Source of the DNA: Marinobacter nanhaiticus D15-8W
GTDB lineage: Bacteria > Pseudomonadota > Gammaproteobacteria > Pseudomonadales > Oleiphilaceae
NCBI RefSeq assembly: GCF_036511935.1
Contig: NZ_AP028878.1
Coordinates: forward strand, 806,001-870,000
Direction: 5' to 3'
DNA: 64,000 nucleotides
Shown one piece after another: positions 4,752 to 44,869 of this stretch. Position numbers and translations under genes: made by a program. Under the pieces are notes generated by a model. The model was not told the origin of the DNA and ran no database searches. It saw nothing but the letters and a program-made list of their open reading frames with translations. Each line of letters opens with the position of its first letter. Position 1 is the stretch's first letter.

Positions 4752-5129
4752 GTAGGGGCGGTAAAGAGTATAGGTTCGCGGTGTGGGCTATATCGTACGG
4801 GAAACTCCGATTATGCCGACAGCGCGAGCCCTCAAGCATGGTAAGGTTTGTGCCGCCTTTCTATAGAGTTCCTCGTTCGAAATACTGCCGGCAAGGATGC
4901 CAGGCATTAGCGACACCTGCCTAGTGGTGTGACTTCCAGGGAGAGATCTGGTTCTTCAGTTGTTACCCGTCTACTGCGCCCACGTTCGGTCAAAGCCAGT
5001 CTAGGCGAACCCTTTCGATATAGCTATTCGCGCGGTATGCCGCCAGCGTTGACGTTTCCGTCGTTTCGAACTAAGTATTAGGTCGAATGGTAACGAGAGA
5101 TTGTTATCGTGGGGTAGGAGGCATTTGCC
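4752..5129. other. Gene-free stretch between early operon and cargo
   Basis: About 380 bases hold no convincing gene. The frames open here (for example 4727-4924) lack ribosome sites and protein-like composition. A TTGACG at 5049 could be a -35 element for the cargo genes, but no good -10 lies at normal spacing. No terminator with a T-run is seen. A short stem, ACACC/GGTGT, occurs near 4912-4929. Confidence 0.5.
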
Positions 5130-5219
5130 ATGTTATATCGTATCACCTCCAGGGGGGCTAGATATGGAATTAAAGGATTTTATTCGGGAGACATTAGTCC
5201 AGCTTGCCCAAGGAATTGA
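5130..5219 (+). CDS. Possible 29-codon leader ORF overlapping the next gene start
   Basis: ATG at 5130 follows a strong TAGGAGG site (GGAGG at 5117-5121) with about 8 bases of spacing and opens a 29-residue frame ending TGA at 5217-5219. That is past the start of the Trypco2-like gene (5164) in another frame. A CCTCC at 5146-5150 could pair with this GGAGG and mask it. This could be a translational leader controlling the cargo gene, or a chance frame using a strong site. Confidence 0.3.
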   Translation: MLYRITSRGARYGIKGFYSGDISPACPRN

Positions 5220-5532
5220 AGAAGCCAATATGGAACTCAGGAGTTCGGCTGCAGTAGTTAATCCGGAGAATGTCATAGTCGATGTCACGGGAAAGGCAAA
5301 ACACTATGGCATCTTATCTGCGTCGGATGACATCGTTGAGTATCTTCCCTCTGTGCAAGCAATTGAGTTCGATGTGGCGGTGCATGCGACTGAAGGTAAG
5401 GAAAAGTCCGCAAAAGGCGGCATATCGGTTGGAGCTATGAACATCGGCGGTTCCGGCGGAGCAAGCGAATCTAAGAGCTCTGAATCTCGAATCCAATTCA
5501 AAATTCCTATGGTGTTGCCCCACGGAAAGTAA
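5164..5532 (+). CDS. Small Trypco2-like protein, defence-associated family
   Basis: This 122-residue protein begins MELKDFIRETLVQLAQGIEEA, has a central segment with V-E-F-D-V-like strand sequence, a Gly/Ser-rich linker (GAMNIGGSGGASESKSS) and ends SRIQFKIPMVLP. This pattern matches the small trypsin-co-occurring domain proteins (Trypco2) described beside conflict-system effectors, where they are thought to act as partners or adaptors. The frame is open from 5101, but ATG 5164 has the ribosome site AGGGGGG and starts the conserved part. It lies 96 bp upstream of the AIPR gene. The family call is from memory and not certain. Confidence 0.6.
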   Translation: MELKDFIRETLVQLAQGIEEANMELRSSAAVVNPENVIVDVTGKAKHYGILSASDDIVEYLPSVQAIEFDVAVHATEGKEKSAKGGISVGAMNIGGSGGASESKSSESRIQFKIPMVLPHGK

Positions 5533-5628
5533 GGAAGTGACTGGACAATAGGTCGGGAATCGAATCGGCTCGGGATCATGCGTGCGTTCAGTGATATTGA
5601 AGTTTACTTAAAATAGAAGGGTTATAAA

Positions 5629-7329
5629 ATGCATCGCATTGTAGCAAGTCACCTTGATAGTTTTGTTGATCAATACGCTCTAGCAGCCGATGACCGTACA
5701 GTTCAATTCGAGAAATTTGCGAACTTCGCAGTTCTTTCTGGGAAATTAGCAACATCAGTTGATCTCGACGATGTAACTACTGGGAATGACGATGACGGTA
5801 CTGATGGCGTAGCCCTTATTATAAATGAAGAGCACATTGTTTCAGCTGGGGATGCCGAATCTCTGTTTGCCCACGAAAGACGAAATAATGATGTGGAGGT
5901 GGTTTTTGTACAGGGAAAAACAAGTGACGGCTTTGATCTAGGTGACTTTCTTAAATTCAAAGAGTCTGTGCTCAGGTTTTTTACACAAGAGCCATACTTG
6001 GCCCTTAGTGATTTGCAGCAGGAAGCAAGAGCGGCTTTCGATGTCGCGATTAAGAACGTCCCAAAGATTAGGCATGGTAAGCCAAGTGTTTCCGCATTCT
6101 TTGTAACAACAGGCAATTATAGTGCTCCTGATGCCTTGGAGGCTGGGCGAAAGGATATGATTTCCCAGCTTGGCGAACTCGGTTTATTCCAAAATGTTGA
6201 CGTTCGCTTCATGGGACGTGATGACCTTGTGAGTGCTTGGGTAGCTAGCTACAGTGGAATCGAGGCGAGCCTTACAATGAATAGTAGTGCTTCGCTTCCA
6301 GAAATAGCCGGAATCGACGAGTCATATCTCGTTGTGGCGAAAGCTAAGGACTACGTCGAAAATTTGCTTGTCAGTGATGATGGTAGCATCCGCGGGCAAC
6401 TGTTCGAAGAAAACGTTCGGCACTTCCTGGGGCCTGAGAATCCTGTTAACGAACAGATTGCGGAAACCATTCTTAATCAAAGTAGTAAGACAAGATTTCC
6501 CGTGCTAAATAATGGAGTGACTCTAGTAAGTCCAGATGTAAGAGTCCAAGGTACGACTTTGCATATTTCGAACTTTCAGATCGTCAATGGATGTCAAACG
6601 TCTCATGTTCTATATGAGAATCGTGAAGCTCTAACTGATGATTTAATGGTTACATTGAAGGTGGTTGAAACAACCGATGAGGATGTTTTTAGTGAACTGG
6701 TTCGTGCGACAAATAGCCAGTCAAAAATTGAAGAGTCGCAGTTCTTGTCATTGAGTCCTATAGCAAAAAGAGTGGAAGCTTATTTTAATACATACGAAGG
6801 ACAGGATGGTCGGCTATATTTTGAGCGGAGAGATAGGCAGTATGTTGGAAAAGGCGTAGCGGCAATTAGAGTAGTATCGCTCCATAATGCGGCGAAATGT
6901 GTATGTGCAATGTTCGTTAGAAGGCCGGACCTTTCTTTTAAATATCCAAAAAGAATGTATGAAGATTTTGGTGCGAAAATTTTCAACGAAGGGAATAGGG
7001 AGATAATATATTACGCTAGTGCGCTAGCGTTGTATCGATTTCATTTGCTTACTTCAAATAATACTATTCCGCAGAATATGCGAAGGTTTAAATGGCATAT
7101 TCTTCCTTTGGCTGCCGCTCTAGTGGCTGGTAAAGATGTTCCACCACTAGGATCAAAAAAGATGGATGCATATGCACAAAAGATCATTGATAAGTTTAGT
7201 CACCATAGTGCGGAAGGCACTGCGATATTCACAAAAGCTGTAGGCATTATTGAAAGTTTGGGCGAAATAACGAACGATCGACTTAAAAGGCAAGCTGTTT
7301 TGGATGAAATGCTCGCCCATGTTAGCTAG
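5629..7329 (+). CDS. AIPR-family (abortive infection phage resistance) protein
   Basis: The 566-residue protein carries hallmarks of the AIPR family: an N-terminal segment with VEVVFVQGKTSDGFDLGD (restriction-endonuclease-like strand with Gln-Gly-Lys), then VLNNGVTLVSP (N294, N295, G296) and IVNGCQTSHVLYEN (NGCQT at 320-324). AIPR proteins are linked to phage exclusion and occur beside restriction or defence genes. Here it is probably lysogenic cargo that protects the host from other phages. The gene is visibly AT-richer than the structural genes, a sign of recent acquisition. The start at 5629 has a weak AAGG site. The nuclease-like role is an inference from the QxK-type motif. Confidence 0.85.
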   Translation: MHRIVASHLDSFVDQYALAADDRTVQFEKFANFAVLSGKLATSVDLDDVTTGNDDDGTDGVALIINEEHIVSAGDAESLFAHERRNNDVEVVFVQGKTSDGFDLGDFLKFKESVLRFFTQEPYLALSDLQQEARAAFDVAIKNVPKIRHGKPSVSAFFVTTGNYSAPDALEAGRKDMISQLGELGLFQNVDVRFMGRDDLVSAWVASYSGIEASLTMNSSASLPEIAGIDESYLVVAKAKDYVENLLVSDDGSIRGQLFEENVRHFLGPENPVNEQIAETILNQSSKTRFPVLNNGVTLVSPDVRVQGTTLHISNFQIVNGCQTSHVLYENREALTDDLMVTLKVVETTDEDVFSELVRATNSQSKIEESQFLSLSPIAKRVEAYFNTYEGQDGRLYFERRDRQYVGKGVAAIRVVSLHNAAKCVCAMFVRRPDLSFKYPKRMYEDFGAKIFNEGNREIIYYASALALYRFHLLTSNNTIPQNMRRFKWHILPLAAALVAGKDVPPLGSKKMDAYAQKIIDKFSHHSAEGTAIFTKAVGIIESLGEITNDRLKRQAVLDEMLAHVS

Positions 7330-7431
7330 TTGATGATCGATCTACTTTCCCTCGTCACTTCTGGCTTACATTAAGAGTAAACTTTCGCCTTAATTTACGA
7401 CTACCTTGAATCAACCAAAAGGAGCTGGAGC

Positions 7432-7758
7432 ATGAGTTTTAATGCCAATGTCGTGGAAATGAGCCAGCAGTTGGAGAATCTTGAAAGCGCTCTTTTAAAT
7501 GAATATGGATATCCAGCACCCCATAGTGCGGCGGATACAAATAACTTAATGATCTGTCTAGCAAAAATTAAAGGCAGTGCTGAAGCGATAGCTGATGAAT
7601 GCGAGGAGGCGCATGACATTGTCGCAGAGTGTGATGATTTTAGGGGCTCTCTCATTGGACAGGATGGTGATCCAATTGACTTCGACACAGGGTTGGGAAT
7701 TGAACTTGGGCTCAAGGACCGCCTCGCCAACCTCAGAGTCTTGATAGATAACTTATAG
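7432..7758 (+). CDS. Unknown small acidic cargo protein
   Basis: The 108-residue protein is acidic and helical (MSQQLENLESALLNEYGY; IKGSAEAIADECEEAHDIVAECDDF) with no recognised family. ATG 7432 follows AAAAGGAGCTGGAGC, a good ribosome site. It sits 102 bp after the AIPR gene and may be part of the same cargo operon. A partner or antitoxin-like role is possible but unproven. Confidence 0.6.
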   Translation: MSFNANVVEMSQQLENLESALLNEYGYPAPHSAADTNNLMICLAKIKGSAEAIADECEEAHDIVAECDDFRGSLIGQDGDPIDFDTGLGIELGLKDRLANLRVLIDNL

Positions 7759-7909
7759 GCGTGGCCACTTTAAGTGGTGGTCTCTCTAAAGTAAACGTCC
7801 ATAACGAGGGCAGCGTTTGTAAGCGAACGCACGGCGCTTTGAGTCGTAGAACTACCGGTTTTTGGCGGTTTCAGGTTGGCCATTACGAGTGCCAGCCAGG
7901 GAGGGATAT

Positions 7910-8836
7910 ATGCTCATCCGTAAGAAAAGGATCAGATCGGCGCGCAGTAACATCCGGGGAATAAAGGATGGCGAGCGGTTCTGTATGGCAGTTACTTCAA
8001 TTGAGCGATTTAGCAGCGAACTGGATAAAATCGGTTTCTCTTCCTCTCTTGGAGTAGGCGAACAGTTGTTGCCTGCGGCGCTTGGCAAGGTCAGCTATTT
8101 CAATGCAGAAGGCGGGTACGAGGTTCATCGCGATCAGCCTATGGAAACGGCGTTCCGTCAGGCCGAGTGGCGCTGGGAAGAATTCCGCGGTAGGTATGGC
8201 AAAGTTGAGAAATCAAAAATCGCCGAAATACCCTATAAAAGGTATCCGAGAACGTTTGTAGAACCGCCCGCGGTTGAGCTGCAGATTGCGTTATCTCCAA
8301 ACAACGAGAAGGTGGTTACCTCGGCATCCGTTACGTTCGACAGTACTTCAGAAAAGCTATTGACTCACATCATCAATCTCTTCTTAGAGCTTTTTGGTGA
8401 ATGCGACATTCTCAAGAAGGATCTCTCTCCAGTATCTCCATCTAAGTTGATTCGCCTGAACTGGGAAGTACTACCTAAAGGCAAACTTCCGTGGGAGAAG
8501 CTCCAAAAGGAGTTGAAGCCAATTGTTAATCGCCAGCCCAAGGGGAATAGAACCGTAATTGATAGCCGTCATGAGGCAATCGCGCGGCATGACCCTGAGT
8601 TTGTAGCTGTCGGGCGCGGTGGATTTGATGGGTATGTGATCTTCGGGTTTCCATCGAAGTCTCTTTACGTTCTAGAAAGCGTTCAAGTAAATAATGCTAC
8701 GTATGTGTTGGATCGAGACTGGGAAGAATTGTCGTCGCTTACGAAGGCGGATCTACTTAACGCCAACCTGCACAAGGGGCGGGTTATTCATCGAGAGTCA
8801 TGGTTTTCTGAGATTCACTCGTTGCTCGGCAAGTGA
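7910..8836 (+). CDS. Unknown cargo protein, about 308 residues
   Basis: No domain is recognised. The N-terminus is very basic (MLIRKKRIRSARSN), followed by mixed alpha/beta sequence with conserved-looking aromatic and charged patches (QAEWRWEEFRGRYGK; RDWEEL). The open frame runs from 7862, but ATG 7910 has the ribosome site AGGGAGGG. An alternative start is ATG 7985. It is the last gene before the HicAB promoter and may complete a cargo cluster with the AIPR gene. Confidence 0.65.
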   Translation: MLIRKKRIRSARSNIRGIKDGERFCMAVTSIERFSSELDKIGFSSSLGVGEQLLPAALGKVSYFNAEGGYEVHRDQPMETAFRQAEWRWEEFRGRYGKVEKSKIAEIPYKRYPRTFVEPPAVELQIALSPNNEKVVTSASVTFDSTSEKLLTHIINLFLELFGECDILKKDLSPVSPSKLIRLNWEVLPKGKLPWEKLQKELKPIVNRQPKGNRTVIDSRHEAIARHDPEFVAVGRGGFDGYVIFGFPSKSLYVLESVQVNNATYVLDRDWEELSSLTKADLLNANLHKGRVIHRESWFSEIHSLLGK

Positions 8837-8854
8837 CATGCACGTGCGTTAAAA

Positions 8855-8903
8855 GTGTGTAGCGTAAGTAAAAAATTGACTGTGTGTGTAGCGTGTGTAT
8901 AAT
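8855..8903 (+). promoter_or_regulatory. hicAB promoter with direct-repeat operator
   Basis: TTGACT (8876-8881) and a perfect TATAAT (8898-8903) are separated by 16 bp. An 11-bp direct repeat, GTGTGTAGCGT, occurs at 8855-8865 and again at 8884-8894, inside the promoter spacer. The arrangement suits autorepression by HicB, whose ribbon-helix-helix domain would bind the repeats. Confidence 0.8.
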
Positions 8904-8930
8904 TGCCTCATCTTGAGTAAGGAGCCCCGC

Positions 8931-9113
8931 ATGAAAAGCAGAGACCTGATCAAGATGATGGAAGAAGACGGTTGGTACGAGGTTGCCGTCCGGGGGAGTC
9001 ACCACCAGTTCAAGCACCCAAAAAAGCCTGGACGAGTGACGATTCCACACCCGAAAAAGGATCTGCCTCGAGGAACCGTCAACAGCATCTTGAAGCAGGC
9101 CGGGCTTAAATAG
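8931..9113 (+). CDS. hicA: HicA mRNA interferase toxin
   Basis: The 60-residue protein has the full HicA pattern: MKSRDLIKMMEEDGWYEVAVRGSHHQFKHP with the catalytic His in GSHHQF (about H24), and a C-terminal PHPKKDLPRGTVNSILKQAGL. HicA is a dsRBD-like ribonuclease that cuts mRNA. AAGGAG lies 6 bases before ATG 8931. The frame is open 36 bases further upstream, but that part overlaps the promoter. The toxin precedes the antitoxin, as is usual for HicAB. Confidence 0.95.
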   Translation: MKSRDLIKMMEEDGWYEVAVRGSHHQFKHPKKPGRVTIPHPKKDLPRGTVNSILKQAGLK

Positions 9114-9120
9114 CCCGGCC
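9098..9120 (+). promoter_or_regulatory. Hairpin across the hicA stop codon
   Basis: GGCCGGGCT (9098-9106) and AGCCCGGCC (9112-9120) form a perfect 9-bp stem with a 5-base loop that contains the start of the hicA stop codon region. There is no T-run after it, so it is not a standard terminator. It may slow transcription or stabilise or process the mRNA between toxin and antitoxin. Confidence 0.6.
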
Positions 9121-9204
9121 GGATTTCTGCCTGATTGCTGGTGACGCGGGCGACCGCCCCAAACAGAGCTAAACAGCGAACAAAGAGAGAAGAGAGGTGG
9201 CGAT

Positions 9205-9609
9205 ATGTACTATCCCATCGTAATTCACCAGGAAGACGACAGCGCATACGGTGTAATCGTGCCGGATCTGCCAGGCTGTCACTCCGCTGGTGAAACTATG
9301 AATGACGCATTAGAAAACGTGGCAGAGGCCATCGATTTTCATCTGGAAGGCATGGCTGAGGACGGTGCGGAAATTCCTGCTCCGAGCGATCTTGAAGGTC
9401 TGAAAGATAACCCGGACTACGCCGGTGGTACTTGGGTTTTGGTCCCGGTGGACCTGAGCCGTTACCTGGGAACCGCGCAGCGTATCAATATTTCGTTACC
9501 CAACCGACTGATCACTCAGATTGACCGTTTCGTTGACACGCATAAGGAATATAAGGACCGGTCGAAGTTTTTGGCGGACGCTGCGCTTAAGGTGTTGCGG
9601 CACGCGTAA
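9205..9609 (+). CDS. hicB: HicB antitoxin
   Basis: The 134-residue protein has the HicB partial RNase H fold at the N-terminus (MYYPIVIHQEDDSAYGVIVPDLPGCHSAGETMNDALENVAEAI) and a C-terminal ribbon-helix-helix DNA-binding domain (RINISLPNRLITQIDRFVD). It neutralises HicA and represses the operon. The start has AGAGGTGG at good spacing. The 91-bp gap after hicA is longer than usual and holds the tail of a hairpin. Confidence 0.94.
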   Translation: MYYPIVIHQEDDSAYGVIVPDLPGCHSAGETMNDALENVAEAIDFHLEGMAEDGAEIPAPSDLEGLKDNPDYAGGTWVLVPVDLSRYLGTAQRINISLPNRLITQIDRFVDTHKEYKDRSKFLADAALKVLRHA

Positions 9610-9625
9610 GGTCCAAGAGAATCTC

Positions 9626-9651
9626 AAGCCCCGCCCGTTGGGGCTTTTTTT
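9626..9651 (+). terminator. Intrinsic terminator of hicAB
   Basis: AAGCCCC (9626-9632) pairs with GGGGCTT (9640-9646) around a 7-base loop and runs into seven T. It lies 17 bp after the hicB stop. Confidence 0.92.
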
Positions 9652-9740
9652 ATGCAGGCGAGCGCATTCTTGAGCTTAGAAAAGTTCGCCGAATTCTAGT
9701 ATTCCTTTTATCTGCAGGGAATCCCTTCCCTTACATACCC

Positions 9741-9953
9741 CTAATCGAGGTTGTTATTCACCTTAGCGTCGGGATTTGAAACGGGGGTATCGATACCATT
9801 GACGTTTCGTACATGGTAATTCGGATAATCCCCATTTCTAATCGCTTTTACGAACTGGCCACGAGTCATGTCAGCACCAGTATGGTTATCGTGAAAGCGT
9901 TCATTTCGACCAGTCTTCGATTCTTGCCGCACGGTTACTCGTTTTCTTCCCAT
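9741..9953 (-). CDS. Small conserved basic protein, unknown function
   Basis: The 70-residue product begins MGRKRVTVRQESKTGRNERF and ends with a NYHVRNVNGIDTPVSNPD-like segment. Similar short proteins with the GRNxRF and DTPVSNPD patterns occur widely in bacteria and mobile elements with no known role. The frame opens 18 bases earlier, but the ATG at 9953 has GAGGCGAG before it. It faces the hicAB terminator. Confidence 0.65.
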   Translation of the reverse strand: MGRKRVTVRQESKTGRNERFHDNHTGADMTRGQFVKAIRNGDYPNYHVRNVNGIDTPVSNPDAKVNNNLD

Positions 9954-10343
9954 TAGCACTCGCCTCTTCACAGATCCACCTTGCCATTGTTTAATAATTG
10001 TACAGTCATGATGTGTTTATGTACAGTTTCTGCTCGTTGCGATGGGAATGTACCTATCCTGTGTAGACTTTGAAGCTGTGGCCTCTGGAACGACAAACTA
10101 TGGGGGGCGTCTATATTGATGGCCCGTATGGGTCCCTGACGTTGTTCAATTGGATGGATGATGTTGAGCTATTAAAGTGTAGAGCCGATGTTCGGCCGAT
10201 TAAGTTTTGCGCCTATGCTAGTGGCGACTGCAGCATGGGAAAAGGTGCTCTATGCTATTAGGGAAAAGTGATTGAAGTCACTGGAGAGAGGCATGTTTCA
10301 CGCCATAATAAGCTGCTCTAACTACACAGTTGAGACGGGTTGA
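9954..10343. promoter_or_regulatory. Divergent control region with TGTACAGT direct repeats
   Basis: This 390-bp stretch separates the small leftward gene from the membrane-protein gene. TGTACAGT occurs at 9999-10006 and 10020-10027, exactly 21 bp (two helical turns) apart, with a third TGTAC at 10049. This looks like a two-site operator for one of the neighbours. A 63-codon frame from a TTG at 10070 has no ribosome site and is not called. No strong promoter hexamers are seen. Confidence 0.45.
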
Positions 10344-11327
10344 ATGCTTGATTGGCTTAAATCTGCAAAAATAAATTTTTTCCGATTCCTGTTTTTTTTC
10401 CTAAAGCCACGTTTGTTTTTTGATGTGGTTATACGTCAAGGCAATCTTAAGAATCTCCTTGTTCTGACAGCATGGATTGTATTCCCAGTGTTTCTAATCC
10501 AGTCCGCAACTAGTCACTTTTTGCGTAATGCCGGAGTTGGTTCACCTTATGAGGTATTGTTTTGCCAGGCAGAAGATGTGGAAGAGTTCATGAAACAGCC
10601 AGAGATAAAAGAATTTATCTCAAGCCGGGAGCAGGCAGCAAGCTCGGGTGAGAATTTTCCACATTTTATGGGCGTGAAGTTTTATGGAAAAGCGCTCGCC
10701 GTTGCTACTGGAAACGAGGACCTCGATAGAGCAAACGATAGAGTTCTCGAGTTTGGTATATATGCTGGCGTTGCAGCGATTCAGCAATGTTTCTTTGAAC
10801 CGGATGTGCCGCAGTTGGCTCTTCTTAAAATGGGATTTTCTTCCATATTGTTTGACGAAGTCAGACCGGCAGATCTCGATGGACCCACCTTTTTTATTGT
10901 TTATGCAATGGCTTTTTCTTTTTCTTTTGCCTTCTCGATATTTGTTCTAAGCCGTCTTTTTGGTGTTGCTGCTAAATTATCGGATATATTTAAAGTGACG
11001 CTTTCAAGTTACATAATATGGAGTTGTTGTTCTCGTATTATCATGACTTTATCATTCATTGTGTTTTGGAATGAGCCTTCTGATTACTTAAGATACGGAA
11101 TGTTTGACTGGCTCAAGTCGAATTTTTTGTTGATTTATATTTTTTCTGCTGTCGTTTTGATTTTAAACATCTACTACTATCTAAAGGCTATGCCTGTCGG
11201 ATTCTTCGCCAGTATGGCGCTATTTGGGGCTTCCGTAGTGCTAGTCGGCTTCTTGGGAGTGGCTATCATCCTGCCTGCGTTATATCTGCTATTTTATATG
11301 GGATTCTGGATAAACCTACTGTTCTAG
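10344..11327 (+). CDS. AT-rich multi-pass membrane protein, unknown function
   Basis: The 327-residue protein has a short basic N-terminus, a hydrophobic helix near 37-58, a soluble middle section (about 65-170) and four or five C-terminal membrane helices (about 183-327). Base composition is much more AT-rich than in the structural genes. No family is recognised. As a single membrane-protein gene in the cargo zone, a superinfection-exclusion role is plausible but unproven. Its last 12 bases overlap the end of the opposing XRE gene. Copy 2 carries one extra Phe in the stretch GENFPH. Confidence 0.7.
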   Translation: MLDWLKSAKINFFRFLFFFLKPRLFFDVVIRQGNLKNLLVLTAWIVFPVFLIQSATSHFLRNAGVGSPYEVLFCQAEDVEEFMKQPEIKEFISSREQAASSGENFPHFMGVKFYGKALAVATGNEDLDRANDRVLEFGIYAGVAAIQQCFFEPDVPQLALLKMGFSSILFDEVRPADLDGPTFFIVYAMAFSFSFAFSIFVLSRLFGVAAKLSDIFKVTLSSYIIWSCCSRIIMTLSFIVFWNEPSDYLRYGMFDWLKSNFLLIYIFSAVVLILNIYYYLKAMPVGFFASMALFGASVVLVGFLGVAIILPALYLLFYMGFWINLLF

Positions 11328-11648
11328 CTCTTCATCTGACAATAGATTTTCTATTAGCTGCTCCACAGCCCGCTGCTGATGTTCCGGAAGCTGACGAATC
11401 TGCGATATTAAGCTTAGGTCCGCTTCGGTCATTTTTGTATTCCTCCCGAATAAAAGCCAATCGATGCTGATTTTTAGGTATTTTTGAATATTCGCTAGCT
11501 GTGACGCAGATATCTCGTGGCCCTTACGCCAGTTGCTCACAGTAGCGGGCGAGCATTCGCAGAAACGGGCTAAATGGGTCACTGAGACCCCCGCAGCCGC
11601 CATGGCGCGCACCAGGCGCGCACCTCGGTCGGGGTCAACGTGTCCCAT
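11316..11648 (-). CDS. XRE-family transcriptional regulator
   Basis: The 110-residue protein has an N-terminal helix-turn-helix (VSVTHLARFCECSPATVSNWRKGHEISASQLANIQKYL, about residues 21-58) and a helical C-terminal tail for dimerisation (EHQQRAVEQLIENLL). An imperfect palindrome, TTTAGTGTCACTGAAA, lies just upstream of the start (11651-11666) and may be its operator. It is convergent with the membrane-protein gene and divergent from the gene at 11767. Confidence 0.82.
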   Translation of the reverse strand: MGHVDPDRGARLVRAMAAAGVSVTHLARFCECSPATVSNWRKGHEISASQLANIQKYLKISIDWLLFGRNTKMTEADLSLISQIRQLPEHQQRAVEQLIENLLSDEELEQ

Positions 11649-11766
11649 TGTTTAGTGTCACTGAAAAACTGCCAATCCTTTGTTCAGCTCAAGTGAAAGG
11701 GCGCAAGCACAAATGTGAACCAGTCGTGCAAAATAAAGCCCGCGCTATGCTAGAGGAAAACGCAGT

Positions 11767-12090
11767 ATGTCAGAAGGGCAATATCCAATGGCACTCAGGG
11801 AAGAACAAGAAGCGGCCATCGACTTGGTTTCGGTACTTCAAGGGTGGCTGACTAAGCCGGTGGTTGGAGAGCAGGGAGTGCATCTGAGTGAACGGGATCA
11901 GGCGGGGATTGATCGACTGCTTGCCCAACTACTGAACCACATCATAGCCCTGGCGCCGGTCAGCTTCCGACCCCCGCCTGCCGCAACACGGCCGATCGAT
12001 CGGCCGCCGGAAGGGCCCCGAGCCATTCGGCCATCATGCTGTGAAGCTGAGCTTTTGGGGGTTGGATGTCATGCTTGTGCGAAACAGTGA
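11767..12090 (+). CDS. Small unknown protein, 3' end antisense to ogr
   Basis: The first 65 residues (MSEGQYPMALREEQEAAIDLVSVLQGW and on to LLNHIIALAP) look like real helical coding sequence, and AGAGGAAAA precedes the ATG. From about residue 66 the frame runs antisense through the ogr gene and the sequence becomes Pro/Arg-rich and shadow-like. The gene may be a read-through version of a formerly shorter one. Function unknown. Confidence 0.5.
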   Translation: MSEGQYPMALREEQEAAIDLVSVLQGWLTKPVVGEQGVHLSERDQAGIDRLLAQLLNHIIALAPVSFRPPPAATRPIDRPPEGPRAIRPSCCEAELLGVGCHACAKQ

Positions 12091-12214
12091 TGACGCCGCG
12101 CCATCCGCAGTCGGCATTGGTGCAACTGGCATAAACATCTTTCACGGCCGGGCTGAGCTTGTTGTGTCCAGTGATCGCGGCTTTCTGCTGGCAGTGGGGG
12201 CACTCAATCCGCAT
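11960..12214 (-). CDS. ogr: Ogr/Delta-type zinc-finger late activator
   Basis: The 84-residue product starts MRIECPHCQQ and holds C5, C8, C31 and C36 in the Cys4 pattern of Ogr/Delta, with CTNADCG as in the family. These proteins bind upstream of P2-type late promoters and recruit RNA polymerase. The frame is open to 12352. The start at 12214 is chosen because a likely promoter lies at 12251-12278 and most family members begin close to the first Cys pair. The start at 12262 is possible. The gene follows the portal gene on the same strand, unlike P2, where ogr lies near att. Confidence 0.88.
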   Translation of the reverse strand: MRIECPHCQQKAAITGHNKLSPAVKDVYASCTNADCGWRGVITVSHKHDIQPPKAQLHSMMAEWLGALPAADRSAVLRQAGVGS

Positions 12215-12250
12215 GCCGTGTTGATCCTCAGTGATTTGACCAATGGATAA

Positions 12251-12278
12251 ATTGTAACCCATTCTAGAAAAACTCCAA
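12251..12278 (-). promoter_or_regulatory. Probable ogr promoter
   Basis: On the minus strand TTGGAG (12278-12273) and TACAAT (12256-12251) are 16 bp apart. The start would fall about 30 bp before the ogr ATG at 12214. The -10 is good and the -35 weak, which would suit a host-polymerase middle promoter. Confidence 0.45.
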
Positions 12279-12312
12279 GCGTGGCAAGGCTTTTGTTGTG
12301 TTTCGGTTAGTG

Positions 12313-13335
12313 TCACAAACTGGTTTCGGGGAAGTCGAACGCCAGGTGACACCGGGCAGGAAGCTGAGCGTTTAAGTCCAGAAACGGCTGGGCCTTGCTG
12401 CGCACTTCGTTATCGATATAGACGCGGCTGATCTTCTCAATATCCCCAAACCCGCCGGTGTTATCCGGCTTGATGCCCGCAAGGGCCGGGGGTACCCGGT
12501 GCGCCACCACAACATCGTCGGCGCTGATCTTCTTCACCCGCTCGAACTCGTCTTTTTGGCTGATATCTCCGACCGGTATCACCTGAACGCCTTTTTCCTT
12601 CCCGTTGGGCACATGCAGGTACATGCTGCGGAAATTCCCCACACCTTTGCCTTCCCGCACCTTATCAGTGATTTCTTTCTCGACTTCCGGGTCCATCTGC
12701 GGATCCGTGGTGTAAAGGATGTATCCCAGGTGGCTGCCATTCAGGAAATAGCGGCGGCGAAATAGGGTCGCGTCCTGATTGAGTAGCGCCGACTGCAGAC
12801 CGCCCAGCCATTCGGGCACGCCATACACCTGCTGCACGGTGTCGTATTCTTTCACCATCAATACTTCGTCTTCCCGGTACTCAATATCCGGGGTTCCGTA
12901 GGGCTGCAGCATCCGGTACCCGCCGTCGCGGCGAACACGCATATTCATGGCGGGCAGATGGCGCAAGCGGACCGGAACACCGAGGAAGTCGGTTAGCACT
13001 TGCAGATAGGCCATGCCGAAGTTTTCAAAGTCCAACGCCGCAGCGCGGAAATCGGCCAGGCTCATGTGCCCGCCGGGTTTGAAAAATCGGGCCAGCATGT
13101 TGCGCTTGAAAAACAGGCAACTGGAGTGATGCGCGTTGGCGCGGCTGATCTGCGCCAGGCCACTGAGCGACACCGGGGGCAAATAAAGGTCGCCCCCAGG
13201 CGAGGTAAACACACCCAGGTAATCCGCCAAAGCGCCCAAAGGGACCGGTTCCGGATCCCCGAAACTCAGGTCGATGCTGTTTTTCTCCGGCGCTTTGGTG
13301 GCGCTGGTACGTTTTGGCTTGCGCTTGTTGCTCAT
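12313..13335 (-). CDS. Q: Phage portal protein (P2 gpQ / PBSX family)
   Basis: The 340-residue protein matches the P2-type portal: a basic N-terminus, YLPPVSLSGLAQISRANAHHSS, the MAYLQVLTDFLGVPVRLRHLPA core, and the C-terminal AGIKPDNTGGFGDIEKISRVYIDNE segment. Twelve copies would form the DNA entry ring at one capsid vertex and dock the terminase. The length is close to P2 gpQ. The start lies 17 bp after the terminase gene, with GGAACC before the ATG. Confidence 0.95.
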   Translation of the reverse strand: MSNKRKPKRTSATKAPEKNSIDLSFGDPEPVPLGALADYLGVFTSPGGDLYLPPVSLSGLAQISRANAHHSSCLFFKRNMLARFFKPGGHMSLADFRAAALDFENFGMAYLQVLTDFLGVPVRLRHLPAMNMRVRRDGGYRMLQPYGTPDIEYREDEVLMVKEYDTVQQVYGVPEWLGGLQSALLNQDATLFRRRYFLNGSHLGYILYTTDPQMDPEVEKEITDKVREGKGVGNFRSMYLHVPNGKEKGVQVIPVGDISQKDEFERVKKISADDVVVAHRVPPALAGIKPDNTGGFGDIEKISRVYIDNEVRSKAQPFLDLNAQLPARCHLAFDFPETSL

Positions 13336-32781: not shown

Positions 32782-33462
32782 CTATTTTGGAGCACTTAGT
32801 TGGCTACCATAGTATTTTTTATATCTGTAATTTCTCGGGTCTTTAAAGCACTCCGGCAAACCCTCTGGGAACGGCTCTCCTCCCAAGTAAACGAGAATTT
32901 TCGATAAATAAGCAGTAACTCTGAGCCAGGCATTTCTAAATGAGTCTATGAGCTCTTCCTCAAACCCTTCAATGTGCCATTCTCGGATCAATGCTAGTAC
33001 TTGAATTTCGTCTGGCGCTAACGCCTGCAACACTATGGGGTTGTCTTTTGACATGTCGATAAATCTTCTTATAGCCATGTCGCTGTCTTCGAATGGATCC
33101 ACATGGAACCCAAACTGCATTTTAACAGTGTATCCTCGGATCGAAGCGACAAACGCCTTGCTTTTTGGCTTTAACATCGATTTATGAACGATGTGGCGAC
33201 GATGCCGAATTATCTGAGAGAAAAGGTGGTCAGCTAGCTCCAGTTCTCTTCTGATGGGCTTGTGCCAAGTGGAGAATCCATCGTGGTTTTGTAATGCCAT
33301 AGCGACCATGTCAGGGATTTCTCTCAGGGATCGTATAAACGCATTCATTGAATAACGCATAGCGTCTGCATTGTGGTAGTGGACTTCAATTTGATGCAGA
33401 TACCAATGGCTTTCGTCCCACCGGTCTAACGCAGCTTCAATTTTTTTGTGACTACAGCCCAT
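32782..33462 (-). CDS. HEPN-like accessory protein, unknown function
   Basis: The 226-residue helical protein has MRYSMNAFIRSLREIPDMVAMAL and a later IIRHRRHIVHK segment. An N-terminal helical bundle with an Arg-x4-6-His motif is typical of HEPN proteins, some of which are RNases in defence or toxin systems. It is AT-richer than the late genes and is transcribed against them. The start codon directly follows the stop of the preceding gene (TGAATG), so the two are coupled. The HEPN call is tentative. Confidence 0.65.
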   Translation of the reverse strand: MGCSHKKIEAALDRWDESHWYLHQIEVHYHNADAMRYSMNAFIRSLREIPDMVAMALQNHDGFSTWHKPIRRELELADHLFSQIIRHRRHIVHKSMLKPKSKAFVASIRGYTVKMQFGFHVDPFEDSDMAIRRFIDMSKDNPIVLQALAPDEIQVLALIREWHIEGFEEELIDSFRNAWLRVTAYLSKILVYLGGEPFPEGLPECFKDPRNYRYKKYYGSQLSAPK

Positions 33463-33967: not shown

Positions 33968-33986
33968 TTAGCTAAGTCATTGAAAA

Positions 33987-34031
33987 TGGTGGGCCTTGCT
34001 GGACTTGAACCAGCGACCAATCGATTATGAG
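33987..34031 (-). other. attP core: 3' half of a CAU-anticodon tRNA
   Basis: Read on the minus strand this 45-bp segment is the anticodon loop CTCATAA, anticodon-stem half, variable loop, T-arm GCTGG-TTCAAGT-CCAGC, acceptor half AAGGCCC and ACCA of a tRNA (elongator Met or Ile2). The 5' half is missing, so it is not a tRNA gene. It lies beside the integrase gene and restores the host tRNA 3' end after integration. Confidence 0.9.
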
Positions 34032-41162: not shown

Positions 41163-41252
41163 ATGTTATATCGTATCACCTCCAGGGGGGCTAGATATGG
41201 AATTAAAGGATTTTATTCGGGAGACATTAGTCCAGCTTGCCCAAGGAATTGA
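41163..41252 (+). CDS. Possible leader ORF (copy 2)
   Basis: Same 29-codon frame as 5130-5219, with the strong GGAGG before it. Confidence 0.3.
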   Translation: MLYRITSRGARYGIKGFYSGDISPACPRN

Positions 41253-41565
41253 AGAAGCCAATATGGAACTCAGGAGTTCGGCTGCAGTAGTTAATCCGGA
41301 GAATGTCATAGTCGATGTCACGGGAAAGGCAAAACACTATGGCATCTTATCTGCGTCGGATGACATCGTTGAGTATCTTCCCTCTGTGCAAGCAATTGAG
41401 TTCGATGTGGCGGTGCATGCGACTGAAGGTAAGGAAAAGTCCGCAAAAGGCGGCATATCGGTTGGAGCTATGAACATCGGCGGTTCCGGCGGAGCAAGCG
41501 AATCTAAGAGCTCTGAATCTCGAATCCAATTCAAAATTCCTATGGTGTTGCCCCACGGAAAGTAA
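41197..41565 (+). CDS. Trypco2-like small protein (copy 2)
   Basis: Same protein as 5164-5532, with the AIPR gene downstream. Confidence 0.6.
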   Translation: MELKDFIRETLVQLAQGIEEANMELRSSAAVVNPENVIVDVTGKAKHYGILSASDDIVEYLPSVQAIEFDVAVHATEGKEKSAKGGISVGAMNIGGSGGASESKSSESRIQFKIPMVLPHGK

Positions 41566-41661
41566 GGAAGTGACTGGACAATAGGTCGGGAATCGAATCG
41601 GCTCGGGATCATGCGTGCGTTCAGTGATATTGAAGTTTACTTAAAATAGAAGGGTTATAAA

Positions 41662-43362
41662 ATGCATCGCATTGTAGCAAGTCACCTTGATAGTTTTGTT
41701 GATCAATACGCTCTAGCAGCCGATGACCGTACAGTTCAATTCGAGAAATTTGCGAACTTCGCAGTTCTTTCTGGGAAATTAGCAACATCAGTTGATCTCG
41801 ACGATGTAACTACTGGGAATGACGATGACGGTACTGATGGCGTAGCCCTTATTATAAATGAAGAGCACATTGTTTCAGCTGGGGATGCCGAATCTCTGTT
41901 TGCCCACGAAAGACGAAATAATGATGTGGAGGTGGTTTTTGTACAGGGAAAAACAAGTGACGGCTTTGATCTAGGTGACTTTCTTAAATTCAAAGAGTCT
42001 GTGCTCAGGTTTTTTACACAAGAGCCATACTTGGCCCTTAGTGATTTGCAGCAGGAAGCAAGAGCGGCTTTCGATGTCGCGATTAAGAACGTCCCAAAGA
42101 TTAGGCATGGTAAGCCAAGTGTTTCCGCATTCTTTGTAACAACAGGCAATTATAGTGCTCCTGATGCCTTGGAGGCTGGGCGAAAGGATATGATTTCCCA
42201 GCTTGGCGAACTCGGTTTATTCCAAAATGTTGACGTTCGCTTCATGGGACGTGATGACCTTGTGAGTGCTTGGGTAGCTAGCTACAGTGGAATCGAGGCG
42301 AGCCTTACAATGAATAGTAGTGCTTCGCTTCCAGAAATAGCCGGAATCGACGAGTCATATCTCGTTGTGGCGAAAGCTAAGGACTACGTCGAAAATTTGC
42401 TTGTCAGTGATGATGGTAGCATCCGCGGGCAACTGTTCGAAGAAAACGTTCGGCACTTCCTGGGGCCTGAGAATCCTGTTAACGAACAGATTGCGGAAAC
42501 CATTCTTAATCAAAGTAGTAAGACAAGATTTCCCGTGCTAAATAATGGAGTGACTCTAGTAAGTCCAGATGTAAGAGTCCAAGGTACGACTTTGCATATT
42601 TCGAACTTTCAGATCGTCAATGGATGTCAAACGTCTCATGTTCTATATGAGAATCGTGAAGCTCTAACTGATGATTTAATGGTTACATTGAAGGTGGTTG
42701 AAACAACCGATGAGGATGTTTTTAGTGAACTGGTTCGTGCGACAAATAGCCAGTCAAAAATTGAAGAGTCGCAGTTCTTGTCATTGAGTCCTATAGCAAA
42801 AAGAGTGGAAGCTTATTTTAATACATACGAAGGACAGGATGGTCGGCTATATTTTGAGCGGAGAGATAGGCAGTATGTTGGAAAAGGCGTAGCGGCAATT
42901 AGAGTAGTATCGCTCCATAATGCGGCGAAATGTGTATGTGCAATGTTCGTTAGAAGGCCGGACCTTTCTTTTAAATATCCAAAAAGAATGTATGAAGATT
43001 TTGGTGCGAAAATTTTCAACGAAGGGAATAGGGAGATAATATATTACGCTAGTGCGCTAGCGTTGTATCGATTTCATTTGCTTACTTCAAATAATACTAT
43101 TCCGCAGAATATGCGAAGGTTTAAATGGCATATTCTTCCTTTGGCTGCCGCTCTAGTGGCTGGTAAAGATGTTCCACCACTAGGATCAAAAAAGATGGAT
43201 GCATATGCACAAAAGATCATTGATAAGTTTAGTCACCATAGTGCGGAAGGCACTGCGATATTCACAAAAGCTGTAGGCATTATTGAAAGTTTGGGCGAAA
43301 TAACGAACGATCGACTTAAAAGGCAAGCTGTTTTGGATGAAATGCTCGCCCATGTTAGCTAG
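41662..43362 (+). CDS. AIPR-family protein (copy 2)
   Basis: Same 566-residue protein as 5629-7329, with NNG and NGCQT motifs intact. Confidence 0.85.
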   Translation: MHRIVASHLDSFVDQYALAADDRTVQFEKFANFAVLSGKLATSVDLDDVTTGNDDDGTDGVALIINEEHIVSAGDAESLFAHERRNNDVEVVFVQGKTSDGFDLGDFLKFKESVLRFFTQEPYLALSDLQQEARAAFDVAIKNVPKIRHGKPSVSAFFVTTGNYSAPDALEAGRKDMISQLGELGLFQNVDVRFMGRDDLVSAWVASYSGIEASLTMNSSASLPEIAGIDESYLVVAKAKDYVENLLVSDDGSIRGQLFEENVRHFLGPENPVNEQIAETILNQSSKTRFPVLNNGVTLVSPDVRVQGTTLHISNFQIVNGCQTSHVLYENREALTDDLMVTLKVVETTDEDVFSELVRATNSQSKIEESQFLSLSPIAKRVEAYFNTYEGQDGRLYFERRDRQYVGKGVAAIRVVSLHNAAKCVCAMFVRRPDLSFKYPKRMYEDFGAKIFNEGNREIIYYASALALYRFHLLTSNNTIPQNMRRFKWHILPLAAALVAGKDVPPLGSKKMDAYAQKIIDKFSHHSAEGTAIFTKAVGIIESLGEITNDRLKRQAVLDEMLAHVS

Positions 43363-43464
43363 TTGATGATCGATCTACTTTCCCTCGTCACTTCTGGCTT
43401 ACATTAAGAGTAAACTTTCGCCTTAATTTACGACTACCTTGAATCAACCAAAAGGAGCTGGAGC

Positions 43465-43791
43465 ATGAGTTTTAATGCCAATGTCGTGGAAATGAGCCAG
43501 CAGTTGGAGAATCTTGAAAGCGCTCTTTTAAATGAATATGGATATCCAGCACCCCATAGTGCGGCGGATACAAATAACTTAATGATCTGTCTAGCAAAAA
43601 TTAAAGGCAGTGCTGAAGCGATAGCTGATGAATGCGAGGAGGCGCATGACATTGTCGCAGAGTGTGATGATTTTAGGGGCTCTCTCATTGGACAGGATGG
43701 TGATCCAATTGACTTCGACACAGGGTTGGGAATTGAACTTGGGCTCAAGGACCGCCTCGCCAACCTCAGAGTCTTGATAGATAACTTATAG
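43465..43791 (+). CDS. Unknown small acidic cargo protein (copy 2)
   Basis: Same protein as 7432-7758. Confidence 0.6.
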   Translation: MSFNANVVEMSQQLENLESALLNEYGYPAPHSAADTNNLMICLAKIKGSAEAIADECEEAHDIVAECDDFRGSLIGQDGDPIDFDTGLGIELGLKDRLANLRVLIDNL

Positions 43792-43942
43792 GCGTGGCCA
43801 CTTTAAGTGGTGGTCTCTCTAAAGTAAACGTCCATAACGAGGGCAGCGTTTGTAAGCGAACGCACGGCGCTTTGAGTCGTAGAACTACCGGTTTTTGGCG
43901 GTTTCAGGTTGGCCATTACGAGTGCCAGCCAGGGAGGGATAT

Positions 43943-44869
43943 ATGCTCATCCGTAAGAAAAGGATCAGATCGGCGCGCAGTAACATCCGGGGAATAAAGG
44001 ATGGCGAGCGGTTCTGTATGGCAGTTACTTCAATTGAGCGATTTAGCAGCGAACTGGATAAAATCGGTTTCTCTTCCTCTCTTGGAGTAGGCGAACAGTT
44101 GTTGCCTGCGGCGCTTGGCAAGGTCAGCTATTTCAATGCAGAAGGCGGGTACGAGGTTCATCGCGATCAGCCTATGGAAACGGCGTTCCGTCAGGCCGAG
44201 TGGCGCTGGGAAGAATTCCGCGGTAGGTATGGCAAAGTTGAGAAATCAAAAATCGCCGAAATACCCTATAAAAGGTATCCGAGAACGTTTGTAGAACCGC
44301 CCGCGGTTGAGCTGCAGATTGCGTTATCTCCAAACAACGAGAAGGTGGTTACCTCGGCATCCGTTACGTTCGACAGTACTTCAGAAAAGCTATTGACTCA
44401 CATCATCAATCTCTTCTTAGAGCTTTTTGGTGAATGCGACATTCTCAAGAAGGATCTCTCTCCAGTATCTCCATCTAAGTTGATTCGCCTGAACTGGGAA
44501 GTACTACCTAAAGGCAAACTTCCGTGGGAGAAGCTCCAAAAGGAGTTGAAGCCAATTGTTAATCGCCAGCCCAAGGGGAATAGAACCGTAATTGATAGCC
44601 GTCATGAGGCAATCGCGCGGCATGACCCTGAGTTTGTAGCTGTCGGGCGCGGTGGATTTGATGGGTATGTGATCTTCGGGTTTCCATCGAAGTCTCTTTA
44701 CGTTCTAGAAAGCGTTCAAGTAAATAATGCTACGTATGTGTTGGATCGAGACTGGGAAGAATTGTCGTCGCTTACGAAGGCGGATCTACTTAACGCCAAC
44801 CTGCACAAGGGGCGGGTTATTCATCGAGAGTCATGGTTTTCTGAGATTCACTCGTTGCTCGGCAAGTGA
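43943..44869 (+). CDS. Unknown cargo protein (copy 2)
   Basis: Same protein as 7910-8836, with AGGGAGGG before the chosen ATG. Confidence 0.65.
   Translation: MLIRKKRIRSARSNIRGIKDGERFCMAVTSIERFSSELDKIGFSSSLGVGEQLLPAALGKVSYFNAEGGYEVHRDQPMETAFRQAEWRWEEFRGRYGKVEKSKIAEIPYKRYPRTFVEPPAVELQIALSPNNEKVVTSASVTFDSTSEKLLTHIINLFLELFGECDILKKDLSPVSPSKLIRLNWEVLPKGKLPWEKLQKELKPIVNRQPKGNRTVIDSRHEAIARHDPEFVAVGRGGFDGYVIFGFPSKSLYVLESVQVNNATYVLDRDWEELSSLTKADLLNANLHKGRVIHRESWFSEIHSLLGK

Follow-up and report, generated by a model that had tools for sequence, protein, structure and literature searches.

A P2-like phage with a unit of about 36.03 kb occurs twice, head to tail, in the window, a stretch of 64,000 nucleotides (G000:C1:806001-870000). 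The copies are 36,034 and 36,036 bases long, and positions 1-27964 match positions 36035-64000 at 99.986%. The prophage unit is bounded by a 48-base attachment core. The joined 100 kb contain this core three times without any difference: one copy, to which no strand is assigned, separates the two prophages (33984-34031), and the third shares bases with the end of a tRNA-Met gene. Among the head and tail genes, those for the portal, terminase, scaffold, major head protein and tail sheath match PHROGs of the P2 type. The primase frame is intact in the first copy and broken in the second by a single-base difference at about 38.7 kb of the window, the sole other difference between the copies being three bases inside an ORF of 327 aa. 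The tandem double prophage could be an assembly artefact. Near the attachment site, a 226-aa ORF (32782-33462) has no PHROG match, and a 179-base tandem duplication (L096:15632-15968) lies immediately outside the left attachment site.

The variable slot of the first prophage is flanked by the phage primase (408-3119, plus strand; PHROG 1139, E 3.3e-216) on the left and by a regulator (11960-12352, minus strand; PHROG 603, transcriptional regulator, E 2.9e-17) on the right. The latter, for which "Ogr-like" is our own label, stands beside the portal gene in relatives too; here this is a portal gene of the gpQ type on the opposite strand (12313-13335, minus strand; PHROG 68, E 5.2e-116). Four ORFs in the slot, all on the plus strand, encode proteins of 122, 566, 108 and 308 aa. 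The preliminary description had placed them at 5130..8836, inside a phage and in one direction, as a candidate exclusion system formed by the whole set. The phage location, the common direction and the four ORFs proved right, but the start of the first gene supported by homologues is 5164, inside the span given, and both the duplication of the phage and the second copy of the set (41163-44869, plus strand, 100% identity to the first) had been missed. None of the four frames is interrupted in either copy.

The spacing of the genes is not tight, the gaps from the gene before the set through to hicA being 412, 96, 102, 151 and 94 bases. The set was also said to be AT-richer than the backbone, and indeed its GC content of 45.3% ranks in the bottom 0.6% when every 3,707-base stretch of positions 1-33983 is considered; the slot as a whole (4752-11650) has 46.2% GC versus 58.8% for the rest. 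The HicAB pair reported after the set was recovered with Pfam: the HicA toxin (8931-9113, plus strand; PF07927, E 2.3e-26) and the HicB antitoxin (9205-9609, plus strand; PF15919, E 2.2e-48) form a separate module in the same slot, which further along also holds the 327-aa ORF and the regulator. This AT-rich ORF (10344-11327, 40% GC) matches no Pfam, PADLOC, PHROG or NCBIfam family. A promoter-like site is seen at hicA (8876-8903, 11/12) and a terminator-like site at hicB (9626-9646), in scans that overall stayed at the chance level (10 vs 9.8 and 7 vs 8.2, respectively). An Rfam search gave no match, and a sequence search of solved structures yielded only chance-level rows for queries A1 and A2 and none for A3.

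In P2, a hotspot for defence genes lies between gpA and gpQ, according to Rousset et al. (PMC9122126, section 10). As in the hotspot described there, the cargo is variable and comprises several modules at once; however, the replication gene here is the PHROG 1139 primase, and the cargo is longer than in any of 32 bounded relatives. The comparison is based on the best 80 of 444 portal loci found, of which 33 have a primase in the same orientation at the border of the slot; the remaining 47 were set aside, the primase being on the other strand, of the gpA type, cut off or not found. The slot lengths are 2.4–5.8 kb in the 32 relatives and 8.8 kb here, the contents being mostly clusters of small ORFs. 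The hicA and hicB genes recur in one relative (L122). Few known families were seen among 46 scanned slot ORFs (PADLOC DEDDh and PDC-S48, two each; five Pfam families), drawn from 154 ORFs of relatives, many of which are probably not genes. Hence a role of the slot in defence is visible only in part in this lineage. With this locus, the P2 hotspot for defence genes reaches a further phage lineage.

The second gene of the set (5629-7329, plus strand) encodes an AIPR/AbiU-like protein of 566 aa with an N-terminal D59...Q95-x-K97 motif and a C-terminal AIPR domain. Its identity, already recognised in the preliminary description, is certain: the protein matches PF10592 (E 1.3e-41; 143.7 bits vs the cut-off of 25), PHROG 1841, annotated as "Abi alpha-like" (E 1.7e-104), and, over its full length, PADLOC AbiU (E 1.3e-110; residues 2-561 on positions 3-530 of the 537 in the model). 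It has the AIPR domain in common with MzaE of the MZA system, but its score of 41.9 bits is far from the NCBIfam equivalog cut-off of 1050. According to a PADLOC survey (excerpts of PMC9958689), prophages of Salmonella carry AbiU-type genes.

Fels-2 carries a full-length relative, 58% identical, in the same slot before the portal gene. RE-2010, whose record notes "prevents superinfection", has an AIPR gene at that place too. An AIPR gene is also found in the slot of E. coli 30EVA1, flagged as frameshifted. All three have the slot AIPR gene without the other three genes. A literature search for Fels-2 together with AIPR found no paper. Among 13 other viral AIPR loci, the portal gene directly follows AIPR in five (L052, L053, L055, L056 and L061), the AIPR gene being broken in L061. 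In contrast to the Fels-2-type loci, the AIPR gene here is followed by more cargo, and the proteins belong to separate clades. In a tree of 120 homologues, five Fels-2-type slot copies and three outgroups (the RE-2010 and E. coli copies were left out), the five slot copies form one clade with the support of 0.995, which excludes our protein; the nearest relatives of the latter are other proteins, e.g. a plasmid protein at 78%. Hence our AIPR gene and those of the Fels-2 type probably entered the slot separately. The tree thus points to more than one entry of AIPR genes into the slot, which recommends AIPR as a single gene to try in exclusion tests.

Residues D59, Q95 and K97 are invariant in 25 out of 25 close AIPR proteins. 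In 12 divergent or reference proteins with the motif region, inspected by eye, the aspartate is kept in all and Q-x-K in nine, the lysine being absent in three of the 12. When N-terminal pieces were compared with nuclease models, nine out of ten gave no match; one distant N-terminus matched Mrr_cat over the motif with E 0.0035, below the cut-off. The conservation of the three residues and this weak match suggest that the AIPR N-terminus is a PD-(D/E)XK-like nuclease. Passages of PMC3506569 instead attribute to AIPR proteins a HEPN RNase domain at the N-terminus. In the proposed mechanism, an Mrr-like PD-(D/E)XK nuclease at the N-terminus would be combined with a C-terminal AIPR domain that senses or regulates, and an infecting phage would trigger nucleic-acid cleavage that stops its own growth.

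The first gene (5164-5532, plus strand) encodes a small protein of 122 aa, labelled Trypco2-like in the preliminary description. The match to PF19631 reaches only E 0.01, and its score of 16.5 bits is below the cut-off of 24.2. Among 43 homologues, PF19631 is present in one, and another bears the name "trypco2 family protein". In all 12 other loci with neighbours listed, the gene stands alone, the neighbours having been scanned in part; for the most part these are phage or housekeeping genes, and one of them matched AbiGi. A trypsin-like peptidase gene is given as a neighbour of Trypco2 in part of PMC7159879; no trypsin family was found in the four genes, nor among the families listed (25 of 31) for 38 neighbours of relatives.

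The two remaining genes had been called unrecognised. This holds insofar as neither matches any Pfam, PADLOC, PHROG or NCBIfam model; nonetheless, 1,061 homologues of the 308-aa protein were found in the database at E ≤ 0.001. No relative of the 108-aa protein was detected. The latter (7432-7758, plus strand) is acidic, with pI 4.1 and net charge –15. No relatives of it were found in plasmids, phages and 387 other genomes, the viral contigs yielded its own phage only, and PDB gave no sequence relative or family pointing to a function. However, a good ribosome-binding-like sequence is seen by eye before its ATG, and the ORF may be a real gene even though no relative was detected.

The 308-aa protein (7910-8836, plus strand) shares its start with the family, and its AlphaFold model has the mean pLDDT of 88.7 and pTM of 0.55. 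The distribution of this family is patchy: the genome considered here is the only one with a member among 274 of the class, and one of three among 398 of the phylum, while 17 plasmid records and six other viral contigs contain it. No constant partner was seen in the annotated surroundings of ten of the 17 plasmid hits. Large and unnamed, the family is worth testing. On plasmid 5 of Lactococcus cremoris SK11 (L064:2301-7912), a gene of this family starts 17 bases after a large DEAD/DEAH helicase gene, a possible two-gene unit and a possible parallel to zorC/zorD. The Pfam domain EH_Signature of the type I Zorya protein ZorC has no match in 32 members of the family, and the comparison of the profiles, with the EH profile comprising three proteins only, gave a chance-level result.

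The same neighbourhood was not found elsewhere in the collections examined, an outcome that the preliminary description had named as refuting its proposal. Among 58 AIPR loci other than our own (45 from genomes and 13 viral), homologue profiles detected the 108-aa or the 308-aa gene in none, and a Trypco2-like ORF in one (L034), about 1 kb downstream with another gene in between. On each side, more than 3 kb of flanking sequence is available in 34 of these loci and more than 5 kb in 29; the remaining 24 provide a weaker test, as their flanks are not longer than 3 kb on both sides. Not one of the four genes was seen in 79 related portal loci. In 216 loci overall, the 308-aa family was paired neither with AIPR nor with the Trypco2-like family outside this phage. 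These collections are samples, each picked by way of one member, rather than a census. Elsewhere, the Trypco2-like and 308-aa genes stand among unrelated genes. Thus the proposed four-gene unit is not supported.

We consider it likely that the four genes were acquired independently of one another, as cargo of a P2-like hotspot. The AIPR gene would be the likeliest working part of this cargo, a single-gene AbiU-like abortive-infection or exclusion protein, with the Trypco2-like and 308-aa genes as separate accessory genes. The defence part of the original proposal thus survives, with an AbiU/AIPR-type gene in the gpA–gpQ slot, and the find is ordinary in kind: cargo of a defence type at a hotspot already known, with a system of four genes not demonstrated. 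Genes that adjoin each other in a cargo slot do not necessarily belong to one system.

It is unlikely that AIPR acts as a two-gene module whose small partner is the Trypco2-like protein as an adaptor or the 108-aa protein as an antitoxin or inhibitor, with the 308-aa gene standing apart. Trypco2 is called an adapter domain in conflict systems in passages of PMC10907252, the lactococcal AbiU system comprises abiU1 and abiU2 according to part of PMC3985639, the 108-aa protein is strongly acidic, and L034 has both AIPR and a Trypco2-like gene; however, AIPR occurs without either candidate in 57 of the 58 loci, and in Fels-2 it adjoins the portal gene with neither. Slightly less probable is cargo with no present defence role, that is, decaying or neutral morons: the slots of relatives seldom match known defence models, and the slot AIPR is damaged in E. 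coli 30EVA1 and L061, but here the four frames have stayed open in both copies and AIPR retains the residues of its motif. That all four genes make up a new multi-gene exclusion system is very improbable, since, although the set has one strand and low GC in common, lies in a defence hotspot and recalls L034, where AIPR is near a Trypco2-like gene and beside a TIR-like ORF, its gaps are 96–151 bases, its third gene has no detected relative, and the counts of 0/58 AIPR loci and 0/79 portal loci, with no combination in 216 loci, rule it out as the main reading.

The L034 region itself (L034:5001-11043, Acidithiobacillus sulfuriphilus) is an apparent defence island, where methylase-like, TIR-like, AIPR, GIY-YIG-like and Trypco2-like ORFs, assigned by eye, stand in a row.
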